Both the position numbers and the translations under genes were made by a program. The notes beneath the pieces were generated by a model, which was not told the origin of the DNA, made no database searches, and saw only the letters and a list, made by a program, of their open reading frames with translations. From positions 1 through 64,000 of the forward strand of contig SSNU01000064.1 of assembly GCA_012064415.1 (NCBI GenBank): 64,000 bases of DNA. The letters are read 5' to 3'. The stretch comes from Gyrodactylus bullatarudis (taxonomy: Eukaryota; Platyhelminthes; Monogenea; Gyrodactylidea; Gyrodactylidae). Below are positions 1,510 through 43,574 of the stretch, in pieces (position 1 is the first letter of the stretch; each line of letters starts with the position of its first letter).

Positions 1510-1851
1510 ATTATTAATTAATTGAATATCTACTTATAAGTAAATCGCTATTTTATTGTGTATAATAAATGTTTTTTCAATTTTTCCCATGATAGGGTTT
1601 TTTTCATAATTTCTTTTTAGGGATGTTGAATATTTTATTCTTATGACTTCATAATACCACATATCCTTATTATTTATGTGAACTCGATAGTAATCTGACC
1701 AATCATTGATCTATTTAATTTATAACTGATTCCTATTGGCTAACCAATCAGAATCAAGTGTGCCTGTGATACAATGCCTATTCTTTTAGCCAAACTTTGA
1801 TTTCAATGCTTTCAAACAGGATGCTTGAATTCTCCTGAATCACTGAAAAGT

Positions 1852-4800
1852 ATGCTCAACCTGTCTCGAAATGCTAATTGTCAGCTTGAAATGTTTATCC
1901 TGATAATTGGAATACTATTTCAGTGCTCGCTTAGCCAGAAGCGATATGGATTTCGTCTGTCTGAGGAATGTCCCAATGGAACCCTTGTGACTAGAATATC
2001 AACAAATAGATTATATTATCAAGATTCCTACTCCAAGACTACTAAAGATACTTATCAATTATTATCAGCTAGTGATTTATTTTCTGTCGATAAAGAGACT
2101 GGTGATATTTCCACGATATCTCGTATCGACAGAGAATCAATATGCCCTTCAGACTATGCCACAGAGAAAGATGGCAAGGAAGTATTTTATGAGAATCCAG
2201 TTTCTTTCTCTGTTCAGTCGAGTAACTGTAAAGTTTCCTTGCAAATTCTCCGAATGTCCAAGTCAGAAATTGACAATGTAAGCAAGACAGATGTCATTCT
2301 GATAGATATTTTCATCATTGATATTAACGATAATCCCCCCAAGTGGCAAGATCAACTTTTGAATATAACAGTACCAGAACATTCACCCATTGACTATAGG
2401 ATACCTCTACCAGTTGCCCATGATCCGGATTGGGGCCCACAAAATACAACATCGAGGTATTACCTTGTTGAAGACTCCAACATGGACTCAAGTCTTATGC
2501 AGGCCTTCAAATTGGAAGTAAAAGAGATTTATCCAACAGATAATCAGGTTAACATGTGGAATTCCAATAGTATTTCGTCATCCTCATGGCAACGAAGAAA
2601 GTTTAAGTTGATGCTTCGTGTTGACAAGGACTTGGACCATGAAAACCCCTTGGATCCTTGGAATAAGATGAGCAAGGCATCTTTTAAGCCCAAACAATTA
2701 TTCCTCAAGTTATTTGCAGAAGACGAAGGCCAGCCATTTCCCCTGCACAGTTTCATCAAGTTAAACATCACCATTGCCGATATAAATGATCAAGCTCCGA
2801 TATTTTTGCCAATTTCCGATCAAAAGAAAAATGTTGAACTAGATTTATTGGAGAATACCCCAATCGACAGGGTTGTCTATCAGCCAGAGGTCTTTGATCC
2901 GGATCCAAGTGATGCAGAAAAGTTGAGATTTAAATTTGAGAATTCGATCCTTAAACAGGCCAGGGATACTTTCAAGATTGACCCATTAACTGGGAAAGTT
3001 AGCGTTCAAAACCCCCCAGACTATGAATCATGTAAGGAATATTTATTGCCAATTGTCGTGTCAGACGGAGAGCACGAGACCCATCAAAATGTCCTCATAC
3101 GAATTCTCAATGAAAATGATCACGAGCCAAAAATTACTGTCCAGTCTATTTTCGATGAAGCTCGGGAACAGAGTACTCCGGGAACTGTTAAACAAATTGT
3201 TTTATTTTTACTAGAACATCAGCCAAAAGGAACTCTCATTGGAACAGTTTCTGTGGAAGATGCTGATCAGAATGATTTTGATAAACTCAAGATTACCTGT
3301 CGAATGATGCATGATAATTTTGCGCTGGAACCGTTATTCGAGAATGCTAAAAACCAGTTTAAATTGATAACAAAAGTTTCCTTTGACCGTGAATTGGCTA
3401 GTGAACAGTTTACATCGCTCATATGCCAGGATAACGAGAGCAATTCAAAGACAGCTCAAATAAATATGAAAGTTATCATTCAAGACATTAACGACCATGG
3501 TCCAATCTTTAACAATCAACCGATGCAGGCGATGATCAAGGAAAACTCACCCATTGGCACTTGGATTTACAAGGTGAAAGCGAGAGACTCGGACACTGGA
3601 ATTAACTCAAAGTTGGGCTATTCAATTGATGCGGAAAGCTCGAGATATTTCAGTATTGATCCGGATCACGGAGACATAACCAGTCTAAGGTTATTCGATA
3701 CGGAAGAACAAAATAACTATGATATTTATGTAACAGTTGTTGACAGATTTGATTCAGGTAAATTATCTGGGGATGAATATTCAAAATCTTCCAATTCAAC
3801 ACTCTCGATAAAAATTGAGGATGTTAATGATTGTGAGCCACAGTTTACTCAGCCTGTCTTTCCATTTTATGTGTCAGAAGAGGCAAAGTTCAACGAAAAA
3901 ATTGGCCAAGTATTCGCCTTTGATCGTGATGCAACAGATAAAAATAACCAGGTGAGTCTAGGAAATTGTTCAAACAAAAGAGTTAGAAATAGTAGTCCCT
4001 TTTCTCTTGTCAATTCCCAACTTTAAATTGGGCGTAAATCTTTTATTTTTTTTCTCATTATTTGATTTTCCAAATCCAAGTATTATTTTTCAATAAGAAT
4101 TCTGCACTGTGGAAAGAGTTGAGTCACTTTGGTTATGAACTAACATATTCTCAAGAAATTTCATTTGAGTTTATCTTAAAACAGTAATAAAATACATTGT
4201 TGCGTAAAGAGACTTGTAAGAAATAAGGAAATTTTATATTCTTTCACTTGTAAACTTTTCGAAACTCTTAATTTATCCTTTCTCGTAGTAAAATTAATTG
4301 AAAAATATTGACTTATAAGTAAAATAATTATTTTCAAAAATTGAGAAATCAGAAAACTAACTCGAAAATATATGGTTTTGTAGGAAAAAATAAGATTAAG
4401 GCTGGGAAAAGTTGAAAAATTTGACTCTCCCCAATACTGTATACTATATAGGAGAACCCATTTCTTTGGAGTGTGACAGGTGAGGAAATGATTGATTAGT
4501 TACAAGGTGAACCATCATAATGGTAGTTGTATGCTCTTTATATGATGAATGGTTATTACTATCGTATAATGATTATATCACCATATATCAAAATTAAATT
4601 CAAAAATTATTATTATGCTGAATTATAGAACGATAAGAACCTCTGATCCCCTTCTTTCAAATGATAAAGTTTATTCCTTGATTGATGTGTATCATTATTA
4701 CTATTGAATTAAGAGTGTTGTAATATGTACTACATATTATGTTGTATAGTTTTTATCAATTTTAAATATATGTGTCTAATTGGGTGTTATAGGGATGATG

Positions 4801-7800
4801 ATGCTCACACTCACATCAAGTTTGAGTGTCAAGTGTCTACAATCTACACACCCTTTTGTTTTCCTATATGGGCCTTTTGATACTCTACATATCTATCTAT
4901 CTATGAAGTAACAATTGAAGAACCTATTACTATATCATTTTCAATATCCTTCTGATGGATCCTTTGTTGAAATACTACACATCTACAATAAAGATTTTCA
5001 AGTTCATTTCAAAGGTGTTAAAAAGAAATAAAATCAATTTGAATTTAATAAATTATAATTTAGGATAATTATCCTAATGTAATGTTACAGTTTATCCTTC
5101 CCGTGTTAAATCCAAAAGAAATAACTTTATCTCTATGCTCTGTCGTCAGATCATCAAACAATCTGGGAGAATTAAGGTTTTTTTTAAAAATTGGTTTCGA
5201 AGGAGTTAACGAATGAAGAAAAGGCATATATTTTTATAATAAATCATTTTTACAACTGAAAAAAAGTTCCCTAGTCCCTTTCACATGTTTATGGATCTGT
5301 ATTTATTTGAAACACTTTTGGTTAAGAAAGGTCACACCGTTGTCTTGCCGGAAATGGATAAAATTTTGTACTTGTGTGTCTTTTGTGTCATCCAATAGTT
5401 TGATATAAAGGATAAATAAATCATGTAAAAATTGTTTGTAATTTCTGACTCTTCCTTCCATCTTCCTCTATGTCTTTCCAAAAATGGGACGGATACATTA
5501 CTAATTAAAGTGGAAAAAAACATTTATTGGAAAACTATCTATAAAGGTTTTCGATGAAGGAAACATTTTTTCTGATGCGTCATTCCTTGTCCTATGAATT
5601 GGACAATGTCATCTTGTATAAGAATGGAAAAGGTAGAAGTGGACTTCAAGTTAATTACACTGGCAAGACTTTTGTGAGCCTTGTCAGTTGAAATATGCCA
5701 ACTCTTTATTTGATGAAAAGTAATAGTTTTCGAGAAACCTAAGTATTGATTCCTTCTTGAAATGCTGCAAATAAACTCATCTCTGTATTTTAAAATTAAT
5801 TTCCTGCATTTCGCTCACACATTGCTCAGAAAATACATTAACTAAGGAAGATGCCTTCCCTGCTCACCTGATCTCCAGTGTATCATAATCATTCCTAGAA
5901 GAAGAAGGATATATACAATTTGATTTTCTGTAGAGTTTGTAAAAGGAAAAAAAATTCATCTTGCACGAAGTTCATTAATAAAATAAGCAATAAGTAAAAG
6001 TAGTTTTAGTAATATTATTAGTGATACAATATCCAATAATATGAACATGAAAAAATATTCAGTCGAATGATGCATTCCTCTTAACACAGCATGAGAAAAG
6101 AATAGGATCTACTCAATAGTATAATAGTTATTACTCAAAAAGTCTTAAAAAGCATATTTTAGCTGGCGAAGGCCAGCATTTAAAATGATTACTATAGTAA
6201 AATAGCTATTTTTGGAGATTCTATAAAACCTGAAGATAATACTTGATATCGGGCAAGTAATGAGAGGGGATCTAAAATAAGTTTCTATATTAGTATCTAT
6301 CAAAACTACATGGCCTCTATGCATCTTATTAGGCAGCTGTAAGACTGAATTCTCACAATTTACAGGGTTTCATTTCTTGTATAAAAAACTTTAATTCCAT
6401 GATAAAACAGTACAGTAATAACCCCATTATTTTTCCAATGTTAGGTTCGTTATGCTATGAAAAGTGACCCGGATAATCGTGCAACAAATGACTTTAGGGT
6501 TTCGACAAATGGTGAAATCTTTGTCAAATCAACAAGACTTGACCGGGAGAAGTATAGCAATTATTCATTTACAGTAATTGCAAAGGATAACGGATCCCCA
6601 GCTCATACCTCAACAACTCAGGTTAGTTATTGAAAAACAAAATGTTTACCTTTTTATCCATTGACCTCATAGATAAAATAGAATACTAAATATCAATGTA
6701 AATAAAAAAATTTTTCATGAATAACATTTTTTAGGTTCATATCTACATAACTGATGTAAATGACAATGCTCCTTATTGGAAATTCCCGGGGGAAATTGCT
6801 CAGTCTGTAAATCTATCGATAAATGAACCAAATGGTTTTCTAATCGCAGAACTGAGTGCCACCGATCTTGACGAGGGAGAAAATGGAACTGTCTCATACA
6901 CCCTAAATAAGGTCAATTTTATACCCTTGAGGAGAATTCAAAAGATTGAATCCTCGAATAAAACTGAAGACAGCACTGGCCAACAGCATAACAGCTTAAG
7001 CATTAACGAGGATGGTATTTTTGAGTTGGACTCTAGCGGGAAGCTTTACGTGATACGTCAATTGACAATGAATGATTTGGGCACTGCCAAGTTATATGTG
7101 GAAGCTACTGACAAGGGGATCCCTCCAAAAGTATCGCAGAGCATTCTAACTGTTCATATAATTAAAGAGAAGGCATTTAATCCGGTTGAAATTGGGTATG
7201 GAAGTCAAAAATCATTGTTGAACCTAAGTAAGGATGGACGTCTGGAAAATGACCTAATTGTCATCGTGATAATGGTCGCAGTCACACTGATAATTTCTCT
7301 TATTCTAATCGTGGCCATCCTATTCTTACGATGTAGATATTGCATTGGCTTTGGGACAAATAATCATATCAATCATAGAAATCTGCCCCTTCATGTACAA
7401 CAACAGCTGATTACCCAGGCAAATCATTCAGAGGAGGTATTCAGGGACTCTCCGAGAGACTTTGTCCTCTCCACAGATCTAATGAATGATTCCGTCTTGG
7501 TTGACTATGGAAATAACACTGTTATACGCGGAGGTATTGTTCAGAGTCCATCGGGAGACTTGTGGTATGCAACTGAGGATCGTCCGAATAACAATACGAA
7601 TAGTTTGTTGAAAAACAAATTTGAGGAGTCTGATTACTGTAAGCTGAGTAAAAATGGAAAATCGAACACAGCAAAGCCTGGCCTTTTATGGCCAAAGGTT
7701 CTGTTCAATAGAAACTCCTTCAATAGACCTGCATTGCAAAACAACTTGAATAACAATCCAAATGGAATTTTAAACACACCTCCAAATCGTCTTCTCAACG

Positions 7801-10800
7801 GAGGGACAGAATACAAGTCGTTCAATATAAAATCAGCAACCATAGCCAGACAGAGTTTAAATAACAAAATCAACAATTCTCGTAGCAGAGATATAAGCAA
7901 TGGTGAGTCTTTCTTTTCATTGTGAAAGCCTCTTGAATCAGAGGTTACATCCATTCTAGGCCTTCACTTTTCCATCAGATAATGTAGAAAATAATAGTTT
8001 AAAGTTTGATTTTAAAAATGTATCTCTGCAAAGTATGGGACATCTTATTTACCTCTCGTGATTCATGTCAGTAAATGGTTGTTTTTCTCCTTTTTTTTAT
8101 TATTTTTTTCCTCCACATCCCTCTCATATAGTAATCGAATTGTAGAGAAAAAACCCTCCTATTGTCAAGAAAGGGGACAGATAAAAATCAGGAAATTCTC
8201 CTTTTTAAATCCATAGAATATGCAGCAAGGGAGATAGATTTGCTTTTCCGTTTACTTACGAGTAGCAAAGAGTCATTCCATTTTTCCTCTGAAAATGCGT
8301 TCAAGATAAGGAAACAGGGTTTATCTCAACTCTCCAGTACACGTATCATCATCATTATTATAATGAACACAATGTCACTTTTATGTTATCTCCCCCCCCC
8401 TCGTATAAGGTTGTAGTCATTCATCTCTTCTACAGTTAGTTATCCCATCATATTCTCAAATACTTTACTGTTATCTGTTCTGTACATATGTTTACTATAC
8501 TCTATATATTTCTATCTCATAGCCAAAAGTTTCTTTTTCTTCGTCTTCCCTTCCTCACAGTAGGGATTTCATTATTTTTTTAAAAAAATGAATCTTAAAC
8601 AGGGAGAAGAGAAAAGCCTAGTCGTCATCCTTTTCCAGAGTGTGGTCTATTCTCCTGGTTAAAATGAACAAAAGAAATAGATGGCATTTTGTAATTGGAA
8701 TTCTGACCTCAACTATTTTCCATCGTAATGATTCCTCATTGTCTTTTATTTCTGATTAGTAGGGTAAAAAGAAATACATGGAAAAGAAGAAGAGATAGGT
8801 TTTCATTTTCTCCCATTCCCAAATATTGTCTCTACATGCTCTCTATTGAGATATGAAGATTGAAATTATCAAAATATTAATTAAAATCTTCAAAAGTTTC
8901 TAATTGTTTTAACAAAGTTGGCAATCTATGATTTTTACAAATTTTCCATCAGAAATTTAAACTTGTTAAAGATTTTTGGAACGCTTTTTTTACTATTTGA
9001 AAGTGAATAAGACTAGAAAATCAATTATGCTATATCTGATCTAATGATTCGGCTCTTTAGTTCGTTCGTTAGTTGGATGAGATCATGAAAATACAGGTGG
9101 GAACCGTATTTGTGGAGTGTAAAATCACACCTCCGTTCATTTGTGTACATTTGTGAATATTCACAGTTTTTCAATAAATAAATAACTTGTCATTGTACTT
9201 TGAAGTAGGTCTATTAGGGTCTTGGTATAAAATTTTGTCTAAAAATTTCAAAAAGTTGAGATTTTCAGATCAATCGATAGAGAATTAAATTCTGATCAGA
9301 ATGGTATAGTATATTGGGGAGGGTGATTGATTTATATAAGCTTAAAATCAGATTAAAGTCGGCCCAAATAAATTTTGTACATTTTTCATCGATGTCGATT
9401 TTAGTGTCAAATGAAAGAGGATAATTACAGGTGACTAATACATTTTTCAATTTAATTGCATCTTTTCTTAACTTGTATCATATGAATAGTGTTTTATGGT
9501 TGATGAATTTACCGTACCACTGAAGAAGACGTGTAAAGAGAAACTCCGTCGAACCGTCTGAATGACCAATGGCTGAGATTTCTAATGTTTAAGCCAAGAT
9601 TTAATAAATTTTATCACTGAATCAATAATGATCCAATTAATCAGCTCATTATCGTTTGGTAGTTGAATTTCGATTTCTTGATTATTTTTACTAAAAAATC
9701 AATGAAATTTTGAAGATAAAAAATCTGTTAAAAATAGCAGGTCTTTTAAATGTTATTGATTCAGTATATCCTCAAGGCTGGTCAAAACGAAGAAAAACAA
9801 AAATATCGATTTCGAAATCTGAGACATGAATATCGAAAGTCTGAACTTGAAGTCTTATTTCTTGATAGTCTCAGGTATCCTACCGTATTTTGAATTAACC
9901 ATCAAAGTTACTGTCAAGATACCAGATTGAAGAAGAATCACGTACAGTATTCAGTATGGTGATGATTTGTTAATGATTTTTCTAGTTCAAATCTAAAACC
10001 AAGGATAAAGAGCGAATGGGGGGAGGGTTAGAAAGTGAAAGTATTCAACGATTACTAATACAAAATAGGAAAAAATTCTGTACTGGAAATTATGTGTGCA
10101 TTAAATAATAAAAAATCCATAGGTTATCCTGCATACTTTAATGGTTTCTTCAAGATCGATTCATACTAAAGGTTTTTCCTCTATATACCTTTCTCTCTTT
10201 CTTTGGCTACCATACAACTAGTATTTAGTTTAAGCCCCATCATGTAATAGTCATCATAATTTGTTACATTATCAGAGTTTATTAACACAGTTTATGTACA
10301 GATGAAAAACCATAAAGATCTCTTGTTCTACTCCACATACTGCATTTTTTACTTTCAAATATATATATCTATATAAGAACCATTAAGCTGTATTCATGTA
10401 TATAATGTATAAAATTGAGAGATTCTCTAATATAGAATTATTCATTCATTCATTTTTATAAACGGAGATTGTATTAAAAGTATAAAGTAATAGATATAGT
10501 AGAGAGTACAATCAGAGAATATTGTTCTTGTTCATCTTGTAATCTATAAACAGAAGAGTAGGCCAAATTTTTCAACTTTTCCCAGCCTTAATCTCATTTT
10601 GAAGTCGATCGTAAACTAAGCATTTTTTCCTATAAAACCATACGTTTTCGAGTTTGTTCTGATCTCGATTGAAAATGAAAATTTTGAACACGCGCCAAGA
10701 TTTTTTCAATGAATTTCACTACGAGAAAGGACAAAATTGAGATTTTTGAATAGTTTTTGTAACATTTTGAATAAAAATAGGGCTTATAGTAAGAATTGAG

Positions 10801-31675: not shown

Positions 31676-33034
31676 TTATTTTGTTACTTGGTGAATGGCT
31701 TCAGCTAAATAACCAACATTCCCTGAAGTAACACTGGCCACACTTATCCGACCATCTTTAGTCATATAAATTGAGAAATTATCACATAATTGAGACACTT
31801 GTTTCTCATCTAATCCAGTATAGCAAAACATACCGATTTGATCGACAATATGCTGCCAATTCCTTGAAGAGCCATTCTTTTCAAGAAGCATTTTCAATGA
31901 TTCTCGCATATCGATAATACGATTCGCCATGGCCTTTACGTCCTTCTCCCTAGAATAAAATTTAAAGTTTATTGGGAGTATAGCTCTTTTTTGTATAACT
32001 AACCATTGTATTCGTAGTCCTTTGGTGTCGGAGAGAATTTCCCTAACTATGCGAGCTCCGTGTATTGGAGGGTTGCTGTACATTGGTCGGATTATAATTT
32101 TCAGTTGGCTCATGACCCTTTGGGAGTCCTCTTCATCCTTGGAGATGATTGTGAGAGCACCAGCACGTTCACCATAAAGACCCATGTTTTTGGCGAATGA
32201 TTGTGATAGTAACAGAGTTGGCAAATCTAACTCATTGAGGAAATAACGAACAGCTGAAGCATCTCCTTCAATGTTGCCAGTGGCAAATCCTTGGTAGGCC
32301 ATATCGAAATAGACCAGGATATCTTTCCTCTTGATCAACTCCCCAATCTCCTTCCATTGCTCGAAAGTAGGATCGACCCCAGTTGGATTGTGTGCACAGG
32401 CATGGAGGAGTATGATGTCGCCCTTGGGTATTTGGGAAATGTCATTCATCATTCCTTGAAAGTCAAGACCACAAGTATGCTTATCGTAATAACGATAAGA
32501 GTGTGAAGTCAAACTTGAATGTTTAATAATTGCATTGTGATTGCCCCATGTGGGGTTTGGAATCCAAATATTCTTTGATTTGGAGAAGGACTTCAAGAAT
32601 TCCATGCCAATCCTCAGTGAACCAGTACCTGAAATAGTTTGGACAGTTGAATTCTAAAGATGAGTGAAATAATTCAACAAACTCTCTTCTGTTTTATGAT
32701 ACGACTATTGGATCCAAGGGCAAGTTTTATGCTTTCATCGCAAAACTCTTGAATCCCTGATATTGGTGCATACTCTTTGTCGAGATAGCGAATTTTTTCT
32801 TCAGCGGAAATAACCGAAGGCAATAAAAACGGTTTCCCTTCATTATCTCGATAGGCTCCTGCTCCCAAATTCATTTTGTTAGGATTTGAGTCTTTTTTAA
32901 AAGCTTCAGTGATACCAAGAATAGCATCAGGCGGTCCAAGAGGTATTTGATTCCATAACGAGCTAAATATTATTTGTGAAAGCTCACAGGTATCGAGGTT
33001 TAAAGTAAAATGGGTAAAATTTACCAAGATTCAT
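31676..33034 (-). CDS. GOT2: aspartate aminotransferase, mitochondrial (416 aa precursor, 4 exons)
   Basis: PLP enzyme that interconverts aspartate/2-oxoglutarate and oxaloacetate/glutamate in the mitochondrial matrix (malate-aspartate shuttle). Exons in order: 33034-32988, 32962-32683, 32653-32004, 31949-31676. Exon 1 encodes a short basic presequence ([16 protein letters not shown]). The mature part starts [20 protein letters not shown], the family's usual beginning, and has 400 residues, the usual size. Visible motifs: [40 protein letters not shown] (Asn/Asp region), YFDMAYQGF, and [14 protein letters not shown] with the Schiff-base Lys264 codon at 32191-32189. The C-terminus is [20 protein letters not shown] with the substrate-binding Arg. 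Introns are 25, 29 and 54 nt; each choice gives exact family length. Head to head with ATP5F1E. Confidence 0.93.
31950..32003 (-). other. GOT2 intron 3, 54 nt
   Basis: Donor CAATG|GTTAGT, acceptor TTTTATTCTAG|GGAG, phase 2. The intron is a multiple of three and stop-free, so the frame reads straight through it. Splicing gives [13 protein letters not shown], which aligns without gaps to QW-x6-MADRI of the family. Reading through would insert 18 residues and alter one junction. Confidence 0.85.
32654..32682 (-). other. GOT2 intron 2, ultra-short (29 nt)
   Basis: Donor AAGAGA|GTTTGT and acceptor CATCTTTAG|AATTC. Removal gives [18 protein letters not shown], matching the family spacing between the LALG block and TVQ-x-ISGTG exactly. 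Without splicing, frame is lost and a TGA follows two codons later. No longer GT-AG choice preserves both flanking conserved blocks. Confidence 0.8.
32963..32987 (-). other. GOT2 intron 1, ultra-short (25 nt)
   Basis: Donor TACCT|GTGAGC and acceptor AATATTTAG|CTCG, phase 2 on both sides. Splicing joins an ATG-led basic presequence to [11 protein letters not shown]. Without it, the ATG frame stops at the TGA inside the donor. The mature-protein frame has no upstream ATG before a stop at 33033-33031, so some splice is required here. Confidence 0.72.
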
Positions 33035-33126
33035 CAAATTTGAATTAATGAAAATTTTTGTTTAAGTTTAGATACCTATAAAATTTTCCGTTAGTAATAT
33101 TCTTATAAACACACCTAACATTTAAA
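33035..33126. promoter_or_regulatory. 92-bp bidirectional promoter between GOT2 and ATP5F1E
   Basis: The start codons of GOT2 (minus, 33034) and ATP5F1E (plus, 33127) are only 92 bp apart, so both 5' leaders and the core promoters share this interval. Two TATAAA words occur on the plus strand, at 33077-33082 and 33104-33109. The first is 50 bp before the ATP5F1E ATG and could serve it. No GOT2-strand TATA box is evident. Both products act in mitochondria, which fits joint regulation, but that is inference. Confidence 0.6.
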
Positions 33127-33325
33127 ATGTTTTATTGGAGAAACGCAGGTATCAAGTAAATTAATTATTCTTAATATTCCAAGTTATATACGCTTCTCAG
33201 AGCTTTGTGCAAACGCAGTTAGGAATTGTGTTAAACCACAACTTAAGAAAAAAACGATAGCTGGTGCAGATCAAGGAGTTACTATCTCTCATTGGCAAGA
33301 TGGTAAAAGTAAATTCTATCATTAA
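33127..33325 (+). CDS. ATP5F1E: ATP synthase subunit epsilon, mitochondrial (56 aa, 2 exons)
   Basis: Small subunit of the F1 central stalk of mitochondrial ATP synthase. Exons 33127-33155 and 33184-33325 are joined over a 28-nt intron. The spliced product begins MFYWRNAGINYIRFSELCAN and continues AVRNCVKPQLKKK, matching the family signature YWRxAGLxYIxxSxxxAxxVRxxLK. GxNYI is, from memory, usual in insects. Length 56 aa against 51 in human. There is no cleavable presequence, as is normal for this subunit. The C-terminal part (ISHWQDGKSKFYH) is variable in the family. Without splicing the frame stops at the eleventh codon (TAA overlapping the donor). It shares a 92-bp promoter with GOT2, and a poly(A) signal follows at 33400. 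Confidence 0.93.
33156..33183 (+). other. ATP5F1E intron, ultra-short (28 nt)
   Basis: Donor ATCAA|GTAAAT and acceptor ATTCCAAG|TTATA. Phase 2 gives the codon AA|T (Asn) and the conserved run AGINYIRFS. The intron is 27 of 28 bases A/T/C-rich by eye and leaves little room for a branch site. Retention puts a TAA in frame immediately after the donor. Confidence 0.85.
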
Positions 33326-33405: not shown

Positions 33406-34108
33406 TATTTAAAAAATAATCAGTATTTTTTTAATACCTCTCAATATTAATACTAATCAAATTCTAATAGAAATCCAATCTAATGACAGTAATCTATCGA
33501 TGTTTAACTTGAGCTATTTTGATTTTAACTTTGAAACTACAAAAATTAATAACTAGATTACAGCTCGTTCGGCTTTTAGATATGACACAATTATTTTCAA
33601 CAGATATTGTGTTGCCGATAAAAATTAGCTCTTATTCTGAGAAATAATTATTATTTCAGAAATTATAATTTTAAGAATTTATTTTTGATGAAATATAAAG
33701 TTATTTGAAATTGTTGCAAAATTAAGATGCAGCATTACAAGGAGAAAATATCATATTTTTCTTATCGCATGTTTTAAAAAAAAAATTTGTTTAAACTCAT
33801 CAAATTGCCATTTTCAAGCATTCTTTGGAAATTTATAGCGCGTACGAATTTCTGCATAACTGGATTTTGGAAATTCCTATTAATCACTTCTTCGTATGGA
33901 ATTATACAGATTATAAGTCAAAAATCGTTTTTTCCTTCAAAGTTTATCTCGCATACCAGTTTTCTCTGTTGCAGATCATTTCAATATTATCTGTCAATAT
34001 GATTTTAATCAATACCTCGGAATTTTAATTCGAAAAATAAGCTTACAATGCGGATCATATTATGCATTTTCACATTTATCACTTGAGGAATTATAAATTT
34101 TACCTTAT
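33406..34108. other. intergenic region and 5' leader of the large nuclear-protein gene
   Basis: AT-rich, with no supported gene. It must hold the promoter of the gene starting at 34109. Short open frames here lack ATG starts or read as Ile/Phe/Ser runs. A noncoding 5' exon is possible but not visible. Confidence 0.5.
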
Positions 34109-37100
34109 ATGACTACGTCTGAAGCTATCGTTGATCAGACCCAAACTATTCAAAGTGACGTCCAGACAAATATTGCATCGTCAGAAAGCAGTCAGATTAC
34201 CTCTACAACAGAAACTACTCCAGTTTCCATCATACAAGCAGCAACTACGGATGATTTAGGGTCTCAAGGAAATGATAATATCAATCGTCCACCTTCATCA
34301 TCGTCTCAGACCTCTGATCCTCCAACAGAACCTAAATCAATGGTTAATCAAGTCAATTTGGCTCCCAATTCTACTCCTGTTGCTAGTAGTATTTCATCAC
34401 TTTCTCAAGCAATTACAATGCTTAATCCGGCTCCTATTGCAGCTAATCCCGTTGCAAAATTGTCTCCCCTTACTCCTACAAACACTGTGGCCAGTGCTTC
34501 CACAGTTCCATCCATGTTTTCATTCGTCCTCTCACCAAAGAACAACAAAGGAGATTTCCCTGGAATTCCAATCACTCTGCCTGGCTATCCATCTGTGACT
34601 CTCCAAGTGACTCAGCTACCTGGAGCAAAGACTAGTGATCAGTTTTATTTAAACTTGGCCACTCCCAGTGTTATTACGGCCTTGAGTGCCACTCAAAAGA
34701 ATAGTAAAGGTCAAATTGTCCTATCTATTTCATCTCAGAGTCTTGTACCTAAAAATAATCAGCCAAACTGTGTACCTACAACTCCTACAGTTATCAACAA
34801 TAGTGATCCCAAAAAAGTTAGAGCAATCGCTCCTAAACCTGTTGTCAGTGGCCAAGCTCAACACTCTATCGATATCTCGCCTAATGGAAAGGCACGTAAT
34901 ACTAAAAGAGTTGGATCTTTCCTTCCTAATCGAGGTCATCTTCTCAAGGGGCGGGGTAAAAAGTCAATTCTTGCTGGCAGTCCTGGCCACATCAATCTTG
35001 CCCCTCAAACTTTAATGCAGAACAATCAAATTGCTCTTCAAGCAGGATCTAAAATCATTACAAATCCAGGAGGTTCTGTCATCAATGGTGGTTTAGCCCC
35101 TGCATTTTTCTCAATGCCTAACGGAAGTACTTCTCTTGTCTTTCCTCAAAATTCGATACCAACATCCACAGCCGCAACTGCTCCAGCTACAACTCAGTTT
35201 GTTTACGATAGTGCTACTGGAACTACTCGGCCATTTCTCTTGAATACTGCAAACTCACTGCAACAACAAATCTTGCCTACTGTATCTCAATCTGCTCCTA
35301 TTTGTGCTTCAATAGATCCTACCAGTGGTCTGATCACATACTTTGCTAATCCGACAACAATTAATGGAAATAGAGCTATTCCTATCGGTACAAATACTGG
35401 TCAATTGTCAACTAATACTGGAGCTGGTTCTCTTATATTTACACAACCTGGTCAAGCTACACCGATATTTTTCCCTGGGAATCCGGCAACTTCCAATGGA
35501 TTTATTCAACAGTCATTACTTCCATCAGGCCAGGTTATTCAAAATCAAAATATTCATCTGAAAGCAAATACTACAACTGGAATTGTCAGTACTGCCTCTC
35601 CAACTAATCCGATTTTCATTAATTCAGCCATCAATATGGACGTTAATTCTGGTGCTCATTCCTCTGAAATTCAACAAGATGGAGAAGACATTCTCACTTT
35701 GGCCTGGAAGCTTACTCAAATGGACGAGGAAACTCCCAATTCTAAAGACGTTGTGAATCTTGATATGATGGCGGAAGAGTCTGGAGTTACCTCTGCTGAA
35801 ACTGTCCTTAATGAGGAGGACCTAGAGAAAGAAAAAGAAATAATCGAATCTGTTGAAAAAGATCAAAAGGAGAAATCATCAAATAATGCAAATTGTATAG
35901 AGGATATTGGTTGTCTAAATTCTACCATAGACATAGAAAAACTCCTGGAACAGGCAGCACAAGAAACTGTTGAAGAGAGTAGTAAAAAGAATGATGAAAA
36001 CCTTTCACTATCAAAAGAAATTATTGACGATAAACCCATGCCAAAATCTCCCACCAAATCTCACGATGATCAAGATTTTTCATTTCTCAACTCCTTCCAT
36101 GGAGATGACGATGAAGTCATCAACTTGGACAACATTAACTCTAGCCTTGAGAAGGAACCCGATGAGCCGACAGTTGAATCACAGGCCATTCCATCGTCTA
36201 CTATTGCTGGTGAAGACATTGAAGAGAAAAATGTCCAGAATGAAGCTGACAAAGTCCCTTGCACAGATCGAGATTATGAAACCCTGACCACTTCAGAACA
36301 GATTGAAGATACTCTCAACTTTCTCAAACAAAATGAATCTGCAGAGAATTTAAAAAGCCCATCTAGGGACGACCCTAAAGATGCCACGATTAACCAGCCA
36401 GGACCTAAACCAACCGAAGAAGATGATGAAGATGGTCTTATTAAAGATGAAATGATTTCTGAGAATCAACTCGACCTTGACCTGGAAAGAGCTGTCGCTG
36501 AGAGCAACCTAACATTTGAGCCCGGTGGAGAGAATTCTCTCTTTGATTTAATCTTTCTTCCGGATGAAGAAGATGAAACATTGGTGAATGGTAATGAAGA
36601 CCTGTTGAATGAAAACACTCAAGATCCTCCCCCTGCTATTGCTACTACAATCAAGGAACTCGACAAGCATCATACAGACGATGAATCTGATTCTGGAAGT
36701 GAACTTGACTTTTTGCCACAACAAAAGAAAACTGTTGCAATGAATGAAAAAGAAATTTTCAACGACAACGATTCCATACTCGAGTCTACTGTTGCCATGT
36801 TGGATGAAAACAAGAATTCTCCCAGTAAAGAATCCCTACCTCATTCGGATAATGTTGATGAAGGAGAAGAAGAGGCCAAAAGTCATCCTAGTCCTGATAA
36901 TAACAATTCCCCCCTTCCGCCAGTTGATACTAGTTCCATTTTGGAAGTGATTGCTGAACCAAACTCTATTTTGCTCAATGATATTGAAAACTATGAGGAT
37001 GAAGAAGTCTCTCCTATTAAATCTAATTTTCACGGTCTAAAATCTTTGGATAAAATGTTGAAAACTTGCCAAAAGAAAAGTGTCGACAGTAGCATTGTTA

Positions 37101-40100
37101 ACATAACCATCTCCTCAAGCAGTACAGACAACAATACTACAACAGATCAATCTCTCAACGATTCTGGTAAATCAGTTATGCAAGAAGATTTTGGCCTCGA
37201 TCAAAAAATTGACAACAACCAAGAACCAACTCTAGACAAGGTAACAGAAGCGGTCTCTGAAGAAAGCGACGATGAAGAAGAACAAGAACCGATTAGATCT
37301 TTGCGATCAAGGCCTACCCCAGGGAAAAAGAGTCCAACCAAAAAGAAAAGAATCACCAAAAATTCTGGCAAAGGAAAAAGTGTTGGTCATGAAAAAGAAT
37401 CTAATTTGTTACCTGAAGAGAATACATCAATTGATAAGGAACCCGTTAGTGAAAAGGAATTACAACCGTTAAACTCCACTTTTAATAGCAATGAGAATAC
37501 CGGACTATTTTTGCATGATTTCCCTATTAACAGTAATAGTTCTTTCTGTGATCTAACCAACGAATCAAGACCTAAATCATTCGGGTAAGTCAACTATAAT
37601 CATGAAAATTGTAGAAAAAATTTATACAAATTTTATCATTTCAGTCTTGACAAAGATCTCAGCTCTGATAACAGTTTAAAGGATATTCTGGGCAAAGAGA
37701 AGAGTGTTGCTTCTGTAGCCAATTTCTCCTTCCTGAGCAAAGATAAACCCTTGATAGAGACGGGTAAAATACAATTCCAACCACCTGAATTGAACTCAGA
37801 TTCTGACAGGGAAGATAATGAAATAGATGTTGTCTCTACCGGTAAGGATGAAGTTGAAAAAGATAAAAGTCATCAACAAATTTCTGGCATCAAGTTCTCC
37901 TCGTGTAAAGCCTATGAAGGCGGGTGTTGTTCCTCGTCTAGCGCTTCTCCTGATGAAATATTCCATTCCGGATGTCACGTCGATCTACCAATCAATTCCA
38001 TTTGCAGAATAGGAGAGAGCTATGATAAGCTCAATTCATCCACTAATCAAACAGATATATTTCAAAAGTTTACCAGTCGTCAAGATCTCTTGTCATTTGA
38101 GACAGTGTGCAAGGAGAATACTGAGCAACTCTCAGCTGTTGTATCCTGTAAGGAATCCACCAATTTTACATTGAACAAAACTGCTTCCAAAGAACAAAGT
38201 CAACCCCAAAACCCCAGTGGTACTGACTATTTGAAGAAACTAGTTCTTCCAGATAATCCGGAAAAATCAAATCCTTCTGTCAATATCTTCTCACAAATGA
38301 TTCAAATGGTACTCACTGATCAAAATTCTCAACCAATGGAAATATTCAAGGCCCTAACTGATAGCATGAACAAGAGCTTGAATCACTCTTCAACCTTTGA
38401 GTATAACGAGATCAATTCAGGTTTTGCTCCAAAGGCCAATCCGATCTATGATAACATTCCTGATAGTCGTACCCCGAGTCCAAGCCCTGCTTACACAGCT
38501 GATCTTTACGAGACTGATCCCCTGATTGAAGATTTTGCTAATGAATTCAATATCGATGTAAATTTGGAATATTCGAATTTGACAATCGTTGAAAATCCGC
38601 CTCTTTTTAATGGCAAAATTGATGTCCTCATTAAAGACTTATCAAAGTCAATCAAGTATCTCGAACCAAAAATAGAACCTGTCAAGGTAACTATCCAGTC
38701 TGAAGCCAAATCAGCTAATAAACGAAAGCTCAAAAAGAGTTCCAAATCAAATCACTCGAGTAAGAAACGTAAAGTTTCTGGTGAAGATGAGACTGTTTCA
38801 TTGACTACACGTCCCTCAATCAAGATTCACATAGCTCTACCTCAAAAAGACACAACAGAGTCCACCAAAATGTCTCCCAAAGTCCACGAGGTACAGAATA
38901 GACCTGATGGGAATGACTTCATGGATGAAAATCACGAAGACAAAGAGAATAACTCTGATGAGCCATCTCGTGAGCCCATCAAGCTTAAACTAAAGTTGCC
39001 ATTTATAAATTCGTGCAAAGAAGAGCTTGTTGAGAAGAAGAAGAGACGCGAGGAAAAGAAATTGCTGAAAGAAGCTCGACGTCAGGCACGCAAATTGAAA
39101 TTCCTTAGTGAATCAGCTCAAAAGTCTCCCGCCACTGTGGACAATAGTGCTAAAGATTCTTCCCCACATATCTCCATTGTTAATACACCGGAACAATCTT
39201 CAATTCCATCACCAGAGCCGATCCCTAAGAAATCTCAGCCAGTCAAACCTGTAGAATCTCTCGGGAAAAAGAGTCGGGGTAGACCTCCCAGAGGTAGTAT
39301 TAAGAAACAAACAAAGAACGTCAATGAAGTCGATCCAATTCCTAATAATAATGACCCTTCAAAGGACCAGAAATCTTCTAGTGAATCAAACCTCGTCTCC
39401 AAACGAATATTCAGTACATCTAAAGAAGACAGAAGATCTAGTGCAGTATTCTCGGTAAGTATCTTTGCTAATTCAGATGAATTATAACTTTTACTACTAC
39501 TATTACTACTAGATTGGGCTGGTACATTTCCCAATACTTAAATGACACTTTTCACAGCCATCTGGTTATTATTTTAAAAATTTTCTCTCACACACACATA
39601 AAGAGCTTATTCTAATTAATATCTTAAAAAATTTTTGCTAGATAAGAATGAAGTATTAAAACAATATGGGGTAAGAAAAGAAATTCTTTAATTTTATAAT
39701 ACCAAGTTTAAAACTTTATAATTTCTTCTCTTTATTCCTCAAAACTAAATCATATCAACCTGTTTTTCACCCATCATTAATTGTGATTAAATTTTAAATC
39801 CATTTCTCCCTCCCATCGGTTTATGTATAATAAAAACAGGGCATTCATCTCGATCTAATACTAACTTGTTCTTATTTGGCTACGTATAGAACTTTTTTTG
39901 CAACTTGTCTCTTCTTGATTTAGTTGAATTTCTTTTGTAATGTAATCTTTATGATCCTCACTTATGAACACATATACACAGATTATTCAGTTTTGTTGAC
40001 AAATCACTCCTTGTTTACCGAGACAATTTATTTCAAAAATAAAATAAACCCTAATAACAACAACAAAAATTAATTCAGCACACTTAAATTTGATAATTAA

Positions 40101-43100
40101 TCTTGCATTTTTTTCCAGCGAAAATCGTGTACACGTCCTGGTCCGAAAAAGTTGTCCTCATCAAAGATTACCAATTACACTCCAGTGAAATCCTTGCCTA
40201 TTGAAAAGAACCTTCCCCCTCTAGAGTTGGAAGAGCCAGCCGAGAAGGAAGAAGATGAATCAAAGCCTTTGAAATTAGTCATCAAGTTTGGAGGTAAATC
40301 CGGATCTGATGAGAAATTCAGCAAGATTCACAAGAAGGAAACTGGGCCGATGGCTAAAAAGCGAAAGAACTCCTCTTCACAGAGCGAATATAACCATGAA
40401 GAACTACCCAGAGATGTTCCCGGTCAATTTGATTCTTACCAAAGTCATGATCCACAGCAAGACTCCAGCTCTACTGGACCAACTTATCTGGACCATTTGC
40501 TTATGGTAGCTGACGCAGCTGAGACCTTTATGGATGTTCATCAATCGCAAGTGAAAAAAGTTGAAAATCAAGCTGCTCTTTCTATGAACCATAATTCTGG
40601 CTCTAATTCGACTATGGATAAACTCTCCAAGACCTGCTCAACATCTTCCAATCTCTTTCCAAAAGAACCAACCTCATACTTTTCCAAAAGTTCTGAACAA
40701 TCGAGTATGTTTTCACACAAAAATATCTACCTGAAAATTATTTAATTTCTTCCTTCATTTCCTCTCTTTTGTAGTATTCCACAATGTCACGAATGATTAT
40801 CCTAGTCAAAGGCATCCACATCATGACCAGAATTATGTTGACTTTAAAAATCCTCAATCGTCATCCTCTTCGAGTGTTGTTCCCAAGTCGCAACCTAATC
40901 ACACTGTGAATCCCATTGTTGGTGATTCAATGATGAGCCCTTTGAAAAAGCGCCCCTCCTCCAAATCAAAGACTCCTAATCATCCACAGACAACCTCCTC
41001 TGTTAATAGTACCAACATAGTTGCCAACACTTCATTGGACATGTCAACCGGCAGCAGTGATACAACCCTTGACATTATCGACGATACTAACACACCACCC
41101 AATCATTTGACGCCAAATATTCAACCAGTCCCATCATCGCAATCAGGATCTATTCCTCAAGTCACTCATCCTCATCAAAATATGAAAAAATCTAATCAAT
41201 CTCTTGCCACCAATCAATCTATCAATCCATTTCGTGAGTATTTTATTTTTTGATTTATTTCTTTCCTCTTATTACACTTGTTTATCTAAATATCCAACTC
41301 TTGACGAAATCTCTTTGTCAGTTAAATTACTGAATGTAATTCCTTAAGACCCAATCTAGTGAGAATTCATCTCTTATCAAATCGCAAATTTATCTTGGCT
41401 ACTAGCAATGTTAGAAGTCAATTTTTTCATATATTTTTTTCGAAAGGAACATATCGAAAATCCCAAATTCACTGACAATTAAGAAAAAAATTAGATTCAA
41501 TAAACTTACACTTGATTCGTTGTGAAAAAATCCAATGTTAATTTTACCAACGACTCTCAGCCAATAATTATGGAATTTTCAAGAATATGAATAATTCTCT
41601 ACCAGGTAGAGAGAGAGAGATACATGACCTTAGAACTTGTCTTCCTATTCTTGCCTTCCATCCATACCTTTTCATCATGTATCGTGTAGTAGTAGACTAT
41701 CTGTTTCATTTTTCTCTAATCGATTTCAGTATATAAATGATATACCCTATACTACTACTACTTCTGACTGTTCGTGTATGTAAGACAAGAGGTATATTAT
41801 ACATATGTCTTTGCATTTGTTCACATGATCTATTATTATTATTTTCTCTCTCTCTCTCTCTATTCAAAACGAAGCTAGTACTTTCTATAGCTCTTTTCCT
41901 CATCTTCATTCAAAATTCTTCATCAATGGTATAGTAAAAAGTGTGCCTAGTCATGATTATGTAGAATAAATACTATTCATTACAACTCACATAGGAATTT
42001 AATTGGTTGAAATATCTCATTTGCTTAATGCCTCATTGACCAATCATATTCGAATGAAAACAATGTTTCTTCTCTATACATCTTTCTGCTAATAGTGCAC
42101 AAAAATTGATACCAACCACAGTTTTTCACTCTCTTAATACAATAATTTTTTCACTATAGTGCTGTTTAATGTTAAGTTTTCTATCTCTCTCTATTTCTCT
42201 CACAAAACTCTGTCATAAAAATCGTTTAATATTTTCGCTCATTCACTGATATAAACTGATATTAATAAGAAAGAAATTGATTCAAAAAAATTATGGAAAA
42301 CTTTCTTGTCTCTCACTCTCTACATACATACAAGCACATGCATACACGTAAACATGTGTTAAATAACATCAGAGTTTACACTTGTCTCATGAAAACTTTT
42401 TCTCTCATTCAAATTTTGGCTTTACATTCGTCTATATATCTGTGAATATACTCGGAATTTCATATTCTCTTCACCCTTTTTTGAGAGAAATGTATCATGG
42501 TTTATTAGGAAAAAAATAGAAAATCAAACCTAACAAAACAGACTAAGTGAGAGATGGTCATGTTATATACACTAGAGTTGAATAATAATACAAATACTCT
42601 CTTCCAATATTACATTATTAGGCTCTGAATCACACAATAATATAACTGTAAATAATTCACTTTTCACGCAGAAGATGATCTTAACAACCTTGCTAATTCC
42701 ACGGGAGGAGATGAAAATGCTTTCACTGCCGCTTGCCAGGCTGTATATCAACAACAATTTGCAGCTGCTATGGCCTCTTATTATCAAAGTTTGTTTTTCA
42801 CCTTGTAAGAGATGTTGGTTATATCATTTACTCTCCTTTTTCCCTTTAGGTGCTCAGTTTAAACGCGAATCAAATGACTATAATGCCATGTCATATCCTT
42901 TTCCCGAACATCTCCATCAACAACAAGCTGTTCAGCACCAGCAGCAACAACAGCCAAAGCAACAAGTCCACCATCCAACTTCTCATTCATCTCAACAACA
43001 ACGACAACAGCCACACTCTCATCATCGAAGTGTAGTTGAACCTGTCCAACATTCACATCATCCTCCAGCTCACCTTTCACACCAGAGCATGCATCATTCC

Positions 43101-43574
43101 TCTTCATCTTCACAGCACCTACCTCATCATCAGTCGTCGACCTCTAGTCGTCAACAGCATCAAAATCACCAGCTTTCTGACAGGTACCAACAAAACACCA
43201 GTAACAATCTTCAAATAGAGGATTCCTATCGTCTCGGAAATAATTCCAACCTACCCCCGTATATCAATCAGTTCTTTGACACTGCCAACAATACCAACAA
43301 GGATTCCCTACTCAATCCAATGGCTGCATCAAACAATACTTCTAGCAACTCAATGATGAATAACGACCTCTCCTCTGGTTACGGTAATATTCCCTCATCT
43401 ATGCAAGAGTATTATTCCTCTGCATATACTGCTGTACAGCAATATGCTGCTGCTTTCAACTTTTATCAGAGTAAATACAGTGAATGGTCCGGTGTTAATG
43501 CAGGAAATGTTGGTGACAATACCGGTGGCACAAGCAGCATTGACGGTAATCCTCGGAATTCATCTAAACGATAA
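34109..43574 (+). CDS. large low-complexity nuclear protein, 6 exons, 2390 aa, function unknown
   Basis: Exons 34109-37584, 37645-39454, 40119-40704, 40775-41233, 42672-42788 and 42850-43574; all junctions are GT-AG with matching phase. The N-terminal third is rich in Ser/Thr/Asn/Gln/Pro, then there is a long acidic Glu/Asp region. Nuclear features: PTKKKRITKN near the end of exon 1, KKRKV at about residue 1532, an AT-hook-like SRGRPPRGS near 1702-1710, and a basic helical run KKKRREEKKLLKEARRQARK. Repeated short motifs IKLKLKLP, LKLVIKFGG and IKIHIALP recur. A helix-like block reads DHLLMVADAAETFMDVH. The C-terminus has CQAVYQQQFAAAMASYYQ, a His/Gln-rich tract, and AVQQYAAAFNFYQSKY. This suggests a chromatin or transcription co-regulator; I cannot name the family. 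The ATG is the first in frame. Confidence 0.85.
39455..40118 (+). other. intron 2 of the large nuclear-protein gene (664 nt)
   Basis: Donor TCTCG|GTAAGT and acceptor TTTTTTTCCAG|CGA, phase 0. No feature seen inside. Confidence 0.75.
41234..42671 (+). other. intron 4 of the large nuclear-protein gene (1438 nt)
   Basis: Donor TTTC|GTGAGT and acceptor TTTTCACGCAG|AAG, phase 1. It contains a short CT microsatellite near 41845-41861 and otherwise plain AT-rich sequence. The other introns of this gene are short: 37585-37644 (60 nt), 40705-40774 (70 nt) and 42789-42849 (61 nt). Confidence 0.75.

Follow-up and report, generated by a model that had tools for sequence, protein, structure and literature searches.

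Three introns of 25, 29, and 28 nt in two neighboring genes, those for mitochondrial aspartate aminotransferase (GOT2) and for the ATP synthase epsilon subunit (ATP5F1E), very probably belong to the flatworm "microintron" class, as ordinary spliceosomal introns of the U2 type, here in a gyrodactylid monogenean. Judging from genomic sequence, it is most likely that these introns are real, are spliced by the ordinary spliceosome, and are typical of the genes that we sampled.

The two genes are located in what we call the window, namely the whole stretch of 64,000 nt that was analyzed, and coordinates given without a locus number refer to it. The assembly comprises 77.3 Mb in 471 contigs, and a contig of 14,926 bases is mitochondrial. 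COX1, which reads with the mitochondrial code 9, places the source among the gyrodactylid monogeneans, which are flatworms: the best 4 of the 120 listed matches are gyrodactylids, and later ones are other monogeneans, flukes, and tapeworms. These four are Gyrodactylus albolacustris with 90% identity, Macrogyrodactylus with 86%, and Cichlidarus and Paragyrodactylus with 85% each. The gyrodactylid COX1 and the size of the mitochondrial contig led us to reject an origin from a dicyemid or an orthonectid. For Gyrodactylus bullatarudis, a table in PMC12677651 lists a GC content of 31.26% and a size of 84.35 Mb; the GC content of the window is 28–40% in 2-kb bins. On its plus strand, the window also contains a cadherin-family gene (1801-7922) with a FAT4-like N-terminal domain and cadherin repeats, and several long open frames at 34097-43571, including those of 1163, 632, and 330 aa. 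The latter frames gave no Pfam match at E 0.001 and perhaps constitute one large gene.

Gene models of GOT2 and ATP5F1E

GOT2 is encoded on the minus strand and reads, after removal of introns of 25, 29, and 54 nt, as an uninterrupted frame of 416 amino acids from ATG to stop. Exon 1 (32988..33034) opens with the start codon at 33034-33032 and encodes a predicted transit peptide of 15 residues plus (L), which was assigned from its position and composition and not from homology. It is followed by intron 1 (32963..32987; 25 nt, GTGAGC...TTTAG, GTGAGCTTTCACAAATAATATTTAG), placed by the reading frame and the start codon, and by exon 2 (32683..32962), placed by alignment with 13 homologues and by the spliced aligner. 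Intron 2 (32654..32682; 29 nt, GTTTGT...TTTAG, GTTTGTTGAATTATTTCACTCATCTTTAG) was recovered by the spliced aligner with each of the three GOT2 references (P0001, P0003, and P0024), and its junction is gap-free against 13 database homologues (57–66% identity). Exon 3 (32004..32653) is supported by the homologue alignment, the spliced aligner, and the complete frame, and exon 4 (31676..31949), which carries the stop codon, by the complete 416-aa frame. Between these two exons lies intron 3 (31950..32003; 54 nt, GTTAGT...TTCTAG); the boundaries chosen by the aligner were of equal length with an offset of 4 nt, and the stronger sites were picked by eye. As its length is divisible by three and it contains no in-frame stop, intron 3 would preserve the frame if it were retained.

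ATP5F1E is encoded on the plus strand, and its spliced product has 56 amino acids with one intron of 28 nt removed. Exon 1 (33127..33155) and exon 2 (33184..33325, including the stop codon) are supported by alignment with a PDB chain, by a Pfam profile, and by translation; the intron between them (33156..33183; GTAAAT...CCAAG, GTAAATTAATTATTCTTAATATTCCAAG) was recovered by the spliced aligner with an ATP5F1E reference and is also supported by the decoy control described below, the Pfam profile, and translation. Indeed, the spliced product covers the full profile of PF04627 (positions 1–49 of 49) with 59.1 bits, as compared with 39.4 bits for exon 2 alone, and aligns as an epsilon chain with PDB 2xnd_I without gaps over residues 2–37 (E 1.4e-8). 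A search of a large protein database with ATP5F1E gave no candidate. GOT2 and ATP5F1E are arranged head to head, and their start codons are separated by 92 bp (33035..33126), which presumably serve as a shared divergent promoter.

Retention of any of the three short introns would lead to a stop codon: two residues inside the 29-nt intron of GOT2, immediately past GIK in ATP5F1E, and, for the 25-nt intron, 16 codons past the start ATG. The three GT-AG intervals proposed in the earlier note were all reproduced in this way, as was its statement that none of the lengths is divisible by three and that the frame is broken when the introns are kept. Its further claim that splicing yields gap-free proteins stood for the 28- and 29-nt introns by gap-free homology, and for the 25-nt intron solely by its reading frame and start codon. 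For GOT2 itself, the remark on longer introns in the vicinity was borne out, as seen in its intron 3.

The 25-nt intron of GOT2 is the shortest in our set of microintrons and carries the most uncertainty. The spliced aligner with homologous references did not recover this intron, given that the transit peptide is unconserved, and the mature GOT2 frame is moreover open across the 25 nt to 33030. An additional ATG is found upstream at 33121-33119 and opens MLGVFIRILLTENFIGI; an alternative donor or another first exon may therefore exist. In that case, the acceptor would be real and the donor would be located in an upstream exon, or a spliced leader would be trans-spliced at the same AG; trans-splicing is reported for Opisthorchis felineus in the text of PMC6530080. 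We nonetheless consider such an arrangement unlikely, in that an ATG was sought ahead of the mature protein in the unspliced mature frame (32677-33030) and none was found there, whereas removal of the 25 nt connects the nearest upstream ATG (33034-33032) with the mature frame. The leader thus formed is basic without acidic residues, its end RYLSLWN stands beside KRLSSHWN of Schistosoma, and the length of 25 nt agrees with the microintron class. Intron 1 as given above is the reading that we prefer.

Intron lengths and positions across conserved genes

The earlier note had proposed a genome-wide survey of intron lengths; ours covered 30 aligned conserved genes: GOT2, ATP5F1E, GOT1, 6 CCT, 11 proteasome, 8 Ras-family, DRAP1-like, and SVOP-like genes. 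The spliced aligner used a flat length cost, required introns to be at least 10 nt long, and gave a small bonus to consensus donors and acceptors; many of the reference proteins were entered by hand. Introns were called from protein homology or frame, with GT-AG ends favored by the aligner that produced the list. The alignment covered 11 of the 14 proteasome loci (at L043, L044, and L056, open frames were recognized by eye only) and 8 of the 90 Ras-family matches; the CCT-family loci L031 and L032 and the L041 match itself are outside the aligned set. Locus L020 was tried as GOT1 and rejected as another gene, with an alignment score of 62 against the reference.

Introns of 25–36 nt were common in this set; 25 of them were present in 18 of the 30 genes, on 16 contigs, with a median of 29 and a mean of 29.6 nt, and 24 of the 25 were recovered by the homology aligner. 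The carriers are CCT chaperonin and proteasome subunits, aminotransferases, ATP5F1E, small GTPases, and the DRAP1-like and SVOP-like genes. A second class consists of 14 introns of 54–69 nt (median 59), and none of the 39 introns of both classes falls in the range of 37–53 nt. A two-component mixture of lengths, with means of 29.5 and 59.9, was favored over one component (BIC −8.7 vs 36.6). When the three introns of GOT2 and ATP5F1E are set aside, the other 22 microintrons span 26–36 nt with a mean of 29.9 nt, so that the 28- and 29-nt introns are typical of the class. Three introns of 109, 118, and 125 nt fall in neither class. Aligner calls that we distrust are kept outside the 39, namely those of 126, 351, 1874, and ~2801 nt in GOT1, of 484, 806, and 1458 nt in the SVOP-like gene, and of 301 nt in L065. 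A PSMA6-like locus (L052:662-691) has a 30-nt intron that is in frame and stop-free; its retention would add 10 residues, and it could readily be misannotated as exon.

The finding rests on one assembly, and it might be supposed that deletions in assembly or sequencing have trimmed normal introns of ~50–70 nt. Against such errors, a class as narrow as 25–36 nt is present on 16 contigs in 18 of the 30 genes, and its splice donors and acceptors are good; random loss should leave neither GT-AG ends nor a sparsely occupied range of 37–53 nt, and we regard this explanation as extremely improbable. The recurrence of the class points instead to genuine introns and to a spliceosome that probably tolerates lengths of about 25 nt, as the earlier note had suggested. 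Its other suggestion, that GOT2 and ATP5F1E are unusually processed, finds no support, since equally short introns recur in unlinked genes.

A decoy control was performed on 23 of the 30 genes with the consensus bonuses off, ten dinucleotide pairs, and introns of up to 200 nt. GOT1 was trimmed to its first part, and PSMB2 and PSMB3 require no intron, leaving 21 informative genes. GT-AG gave the top alignment score among the ten pairs in 19 of these 21; in PSMA7 and PSMB7, a decoy pair outscored GT-AG by 1 and 3 points. With GT-AG, the alignment scores summed to 20,552; the best decoy reached 19,705, and alignment without introns 16,251. Furthermore, 34 introns were found with GT-AG, 21 of them of 36 nt or shorter, as compared with 22–27 for each decoy and 5–11 of that size. 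A 59-nt intron in a RAB5-like gene disappeared with the consensus bonus off. With microintrons shared by 18 of the 30 genes and decoys inferior to GT-AG in 19 of the 21, the GOT2/ATP5F1E locus is not special.

A de novo scan of 259 kb, in which no homology was used, separated real signals from decoys poorly (57 and 51 candidates, respectively, at a threshold of 15). Its list shows clusters near 28–33 and 54–68 nt and also includes four weak putative introns of 37, 42, 47, and 50 nt, which are inside the 37–53 gap. Five introns of the scan (in CCT2, CCT4, CCT6, and the DRAP1-like and SVOP-like genes) were later recovered by alignment, and a 36-nt intron of GOT1 was superseded by one of 27 nt. 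The mid-length introns of CCT8 (56 nt) and CCT3 (68 nt) come from the scan, and their flanks probably belong to these subunits.

In terms of position, microintrons precede the longer introns in all nine genes that have both, for which the chance is 1/120,960; in this count, GOT1 is represented by its 27-nt intron followed by that of 2801 nt and no others, and the SVOP-like gene by its full set of seven introns. In the seven firm mixed genes only, the same order has a chance of 1/1,728. No introns were seen in 5' UTRs among the loci, which were taken with short flanks. The earlier note had found it odd that the two affected genes are neighbors. This no longer calls for a special explanation: because microintrons are biased toward the 5' ends of genes and GOT2 and ATP5F1E are arranged head to head, both neighbors would be affected, and their microintrons would come close together.

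Splice signals and a proposed splicing route

The donors of the microintrons are usually near GTAAGT; among the 25, 22 have A at +4, 18 have G at +5, and 16 have T at +6, and the introns are T-rich just ahead of the AG. The motif yUnAy occurs in 23 of the 25, as compared with a mean of 19.2 in shuffles (P 0.04, uncorrected and the best of seven distinct motifs), and its adenosine is 8–14 nt from the intron end in 20 of the 25 by a hand count. No enrichment of yUnAy was found in the 14 introns of the mid-length class. Donors of the U12 type have the motif ATATCC or GTATCC; the latter was found in none of the 25 microintrons, the aligner having admitted GT or GC donors only. As for the snRNAs, the U1 copy at L057 retains the donor-pairing ACTTACCT, and GTAGTATCTG is kept in two of the three U2 copies (L009 and L010). 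The remaining U2-like copy (L011:1490-1700; G000:C125:86543-86730) is above the Rfam cut-off without the branch-pairing sequence GTAGTA and is probably degenerate.

An alternative would be special processing of both genes, be it splicing of the tRNA type or the Hac1 type, programmed frameshifting, or editing. The neighboring of the two genes is the only observation in favor of special processing, to which we assign next to no probability in view of the GT-AG signals, the U1-complementary donors, the recurrence in unlinked genes, and the canonical U1 and U2 copies in the genome. More probably, the normal major spliceosome excises the microintrons in an intron-definition mode, in which U1 would pair with the donor and U2 would act on a putative, loose yUnAy branch site ~8–14 nt from the intron end. 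That both genes carry microintrons would then reflect the 5' location of the class and the head-to-head arrangement.

Relation to other short introns and meaning of the two lengths

A feature of this kind has been described before in flatworms, the genus Gyrodactylus among them. According to the text of PMC5036155, tapeworms have short introns with peaks at ~36 and ~73 bp, and this is noted in Gyrodactylus salaris, a member of the same flatworm family as our source, too; the text gives no number for the intron lengths of G. salaris. Tapeworms and G. salaris thus resemble our source in having two discrete short classes, the second about twice the first (29/59 here and 36/73 in tapeworms). In tapeworms, however, the first class is ~36 bp and, as described in PMC5036155, is located toward the 3' ends, whereas it is ~29 nt and toward the 5' end here. 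The same text describes the two-peak feature as absent from flukes and Schmidtea, with a single short peak in Schistosoma mansoni and Schmidtea. For O. felineus, PMC6530080, whose text refers to Hahn et al. 2014 with regard to Monogenea, reports microintrons with peaks at 37 and 90 bp close to the transcription start, i.e., the 5' ends of genes. They are alike in being very short and 5'-biased with near-consensus splice sites, but are longer than those here, and the ratio of the peaks is 2.4 vs 2.0 here.

The earlier note had held that animal introns are rarely far below about 40 nt, and this does not fit the literature. The introns sampled in dicyemids have a mean of 26.2 ± 1.9 nt (n = 16, in the text of PMC2222250), a length nearly equal to that of the three introns in GOT2 and ATP5F1E, and the flatworm class is near 36–37 nt. 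Dicyemids differ from our source in that the genome-wide mean in Dicyema japonicum is given as 38 bp in PMC6736024, whereas the short class here exists beside introns of 54–69 nt and longer ones. Outside animals, spliceosomal introns equally small or smaller are those of the unrelated Paramecium (20–35 bp) and Bigelowiella nucleomorph (18–21 bp), as cited in PMC2222250. Figures and supplements aside, no text stating ~29 nt for a gyrodactylid was found in the literature consulted; this value and the clear 29/59 pair are slightly new.

One might speculate that short introns are quantised, their lengths standing at 1:2 (29/59 here and 36/73 in tapeworms) and shifting together between lineages. 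If true, this would mean two fixed geometries of the spliceosome or doubled introns and not independent drift. We consider the idea very unlikely; the 37/90 peaks of O. felineus, with their ratio of 2.4, and the single short peak of S. mansoni and Schmidtea as described in PMC5036155 speak against it. A view of mid-length introns as fused microintrons found no support, there being no excess of internal acceptor-donor relics in the 14 introns, which leaves mainly the geometric version. Apart from that idea, the lower working bound on intron length in this gyrodactylid would be ~25–26 nt. With introns of ~29 and ~59 nt predicted side by side in one and the same gene, this animal would be useful for measuring the limits of spliceosome geometry.

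In practical terms, many conserved genes here would be broken by software for gene prediction or read mapping in which the minimum intron is set higher. Genome BUSCO scores of 55.6–58.7% are tabulated for three Gyrodactylus species in PMC12677651, and intron-length settings may contribute to these scores. As a separate observation on the introns of 54–69 nt, an internal YAG is depleted in them (3 of 14 vs 6.3 in shuffles), as though decoy acceptors were avoided.
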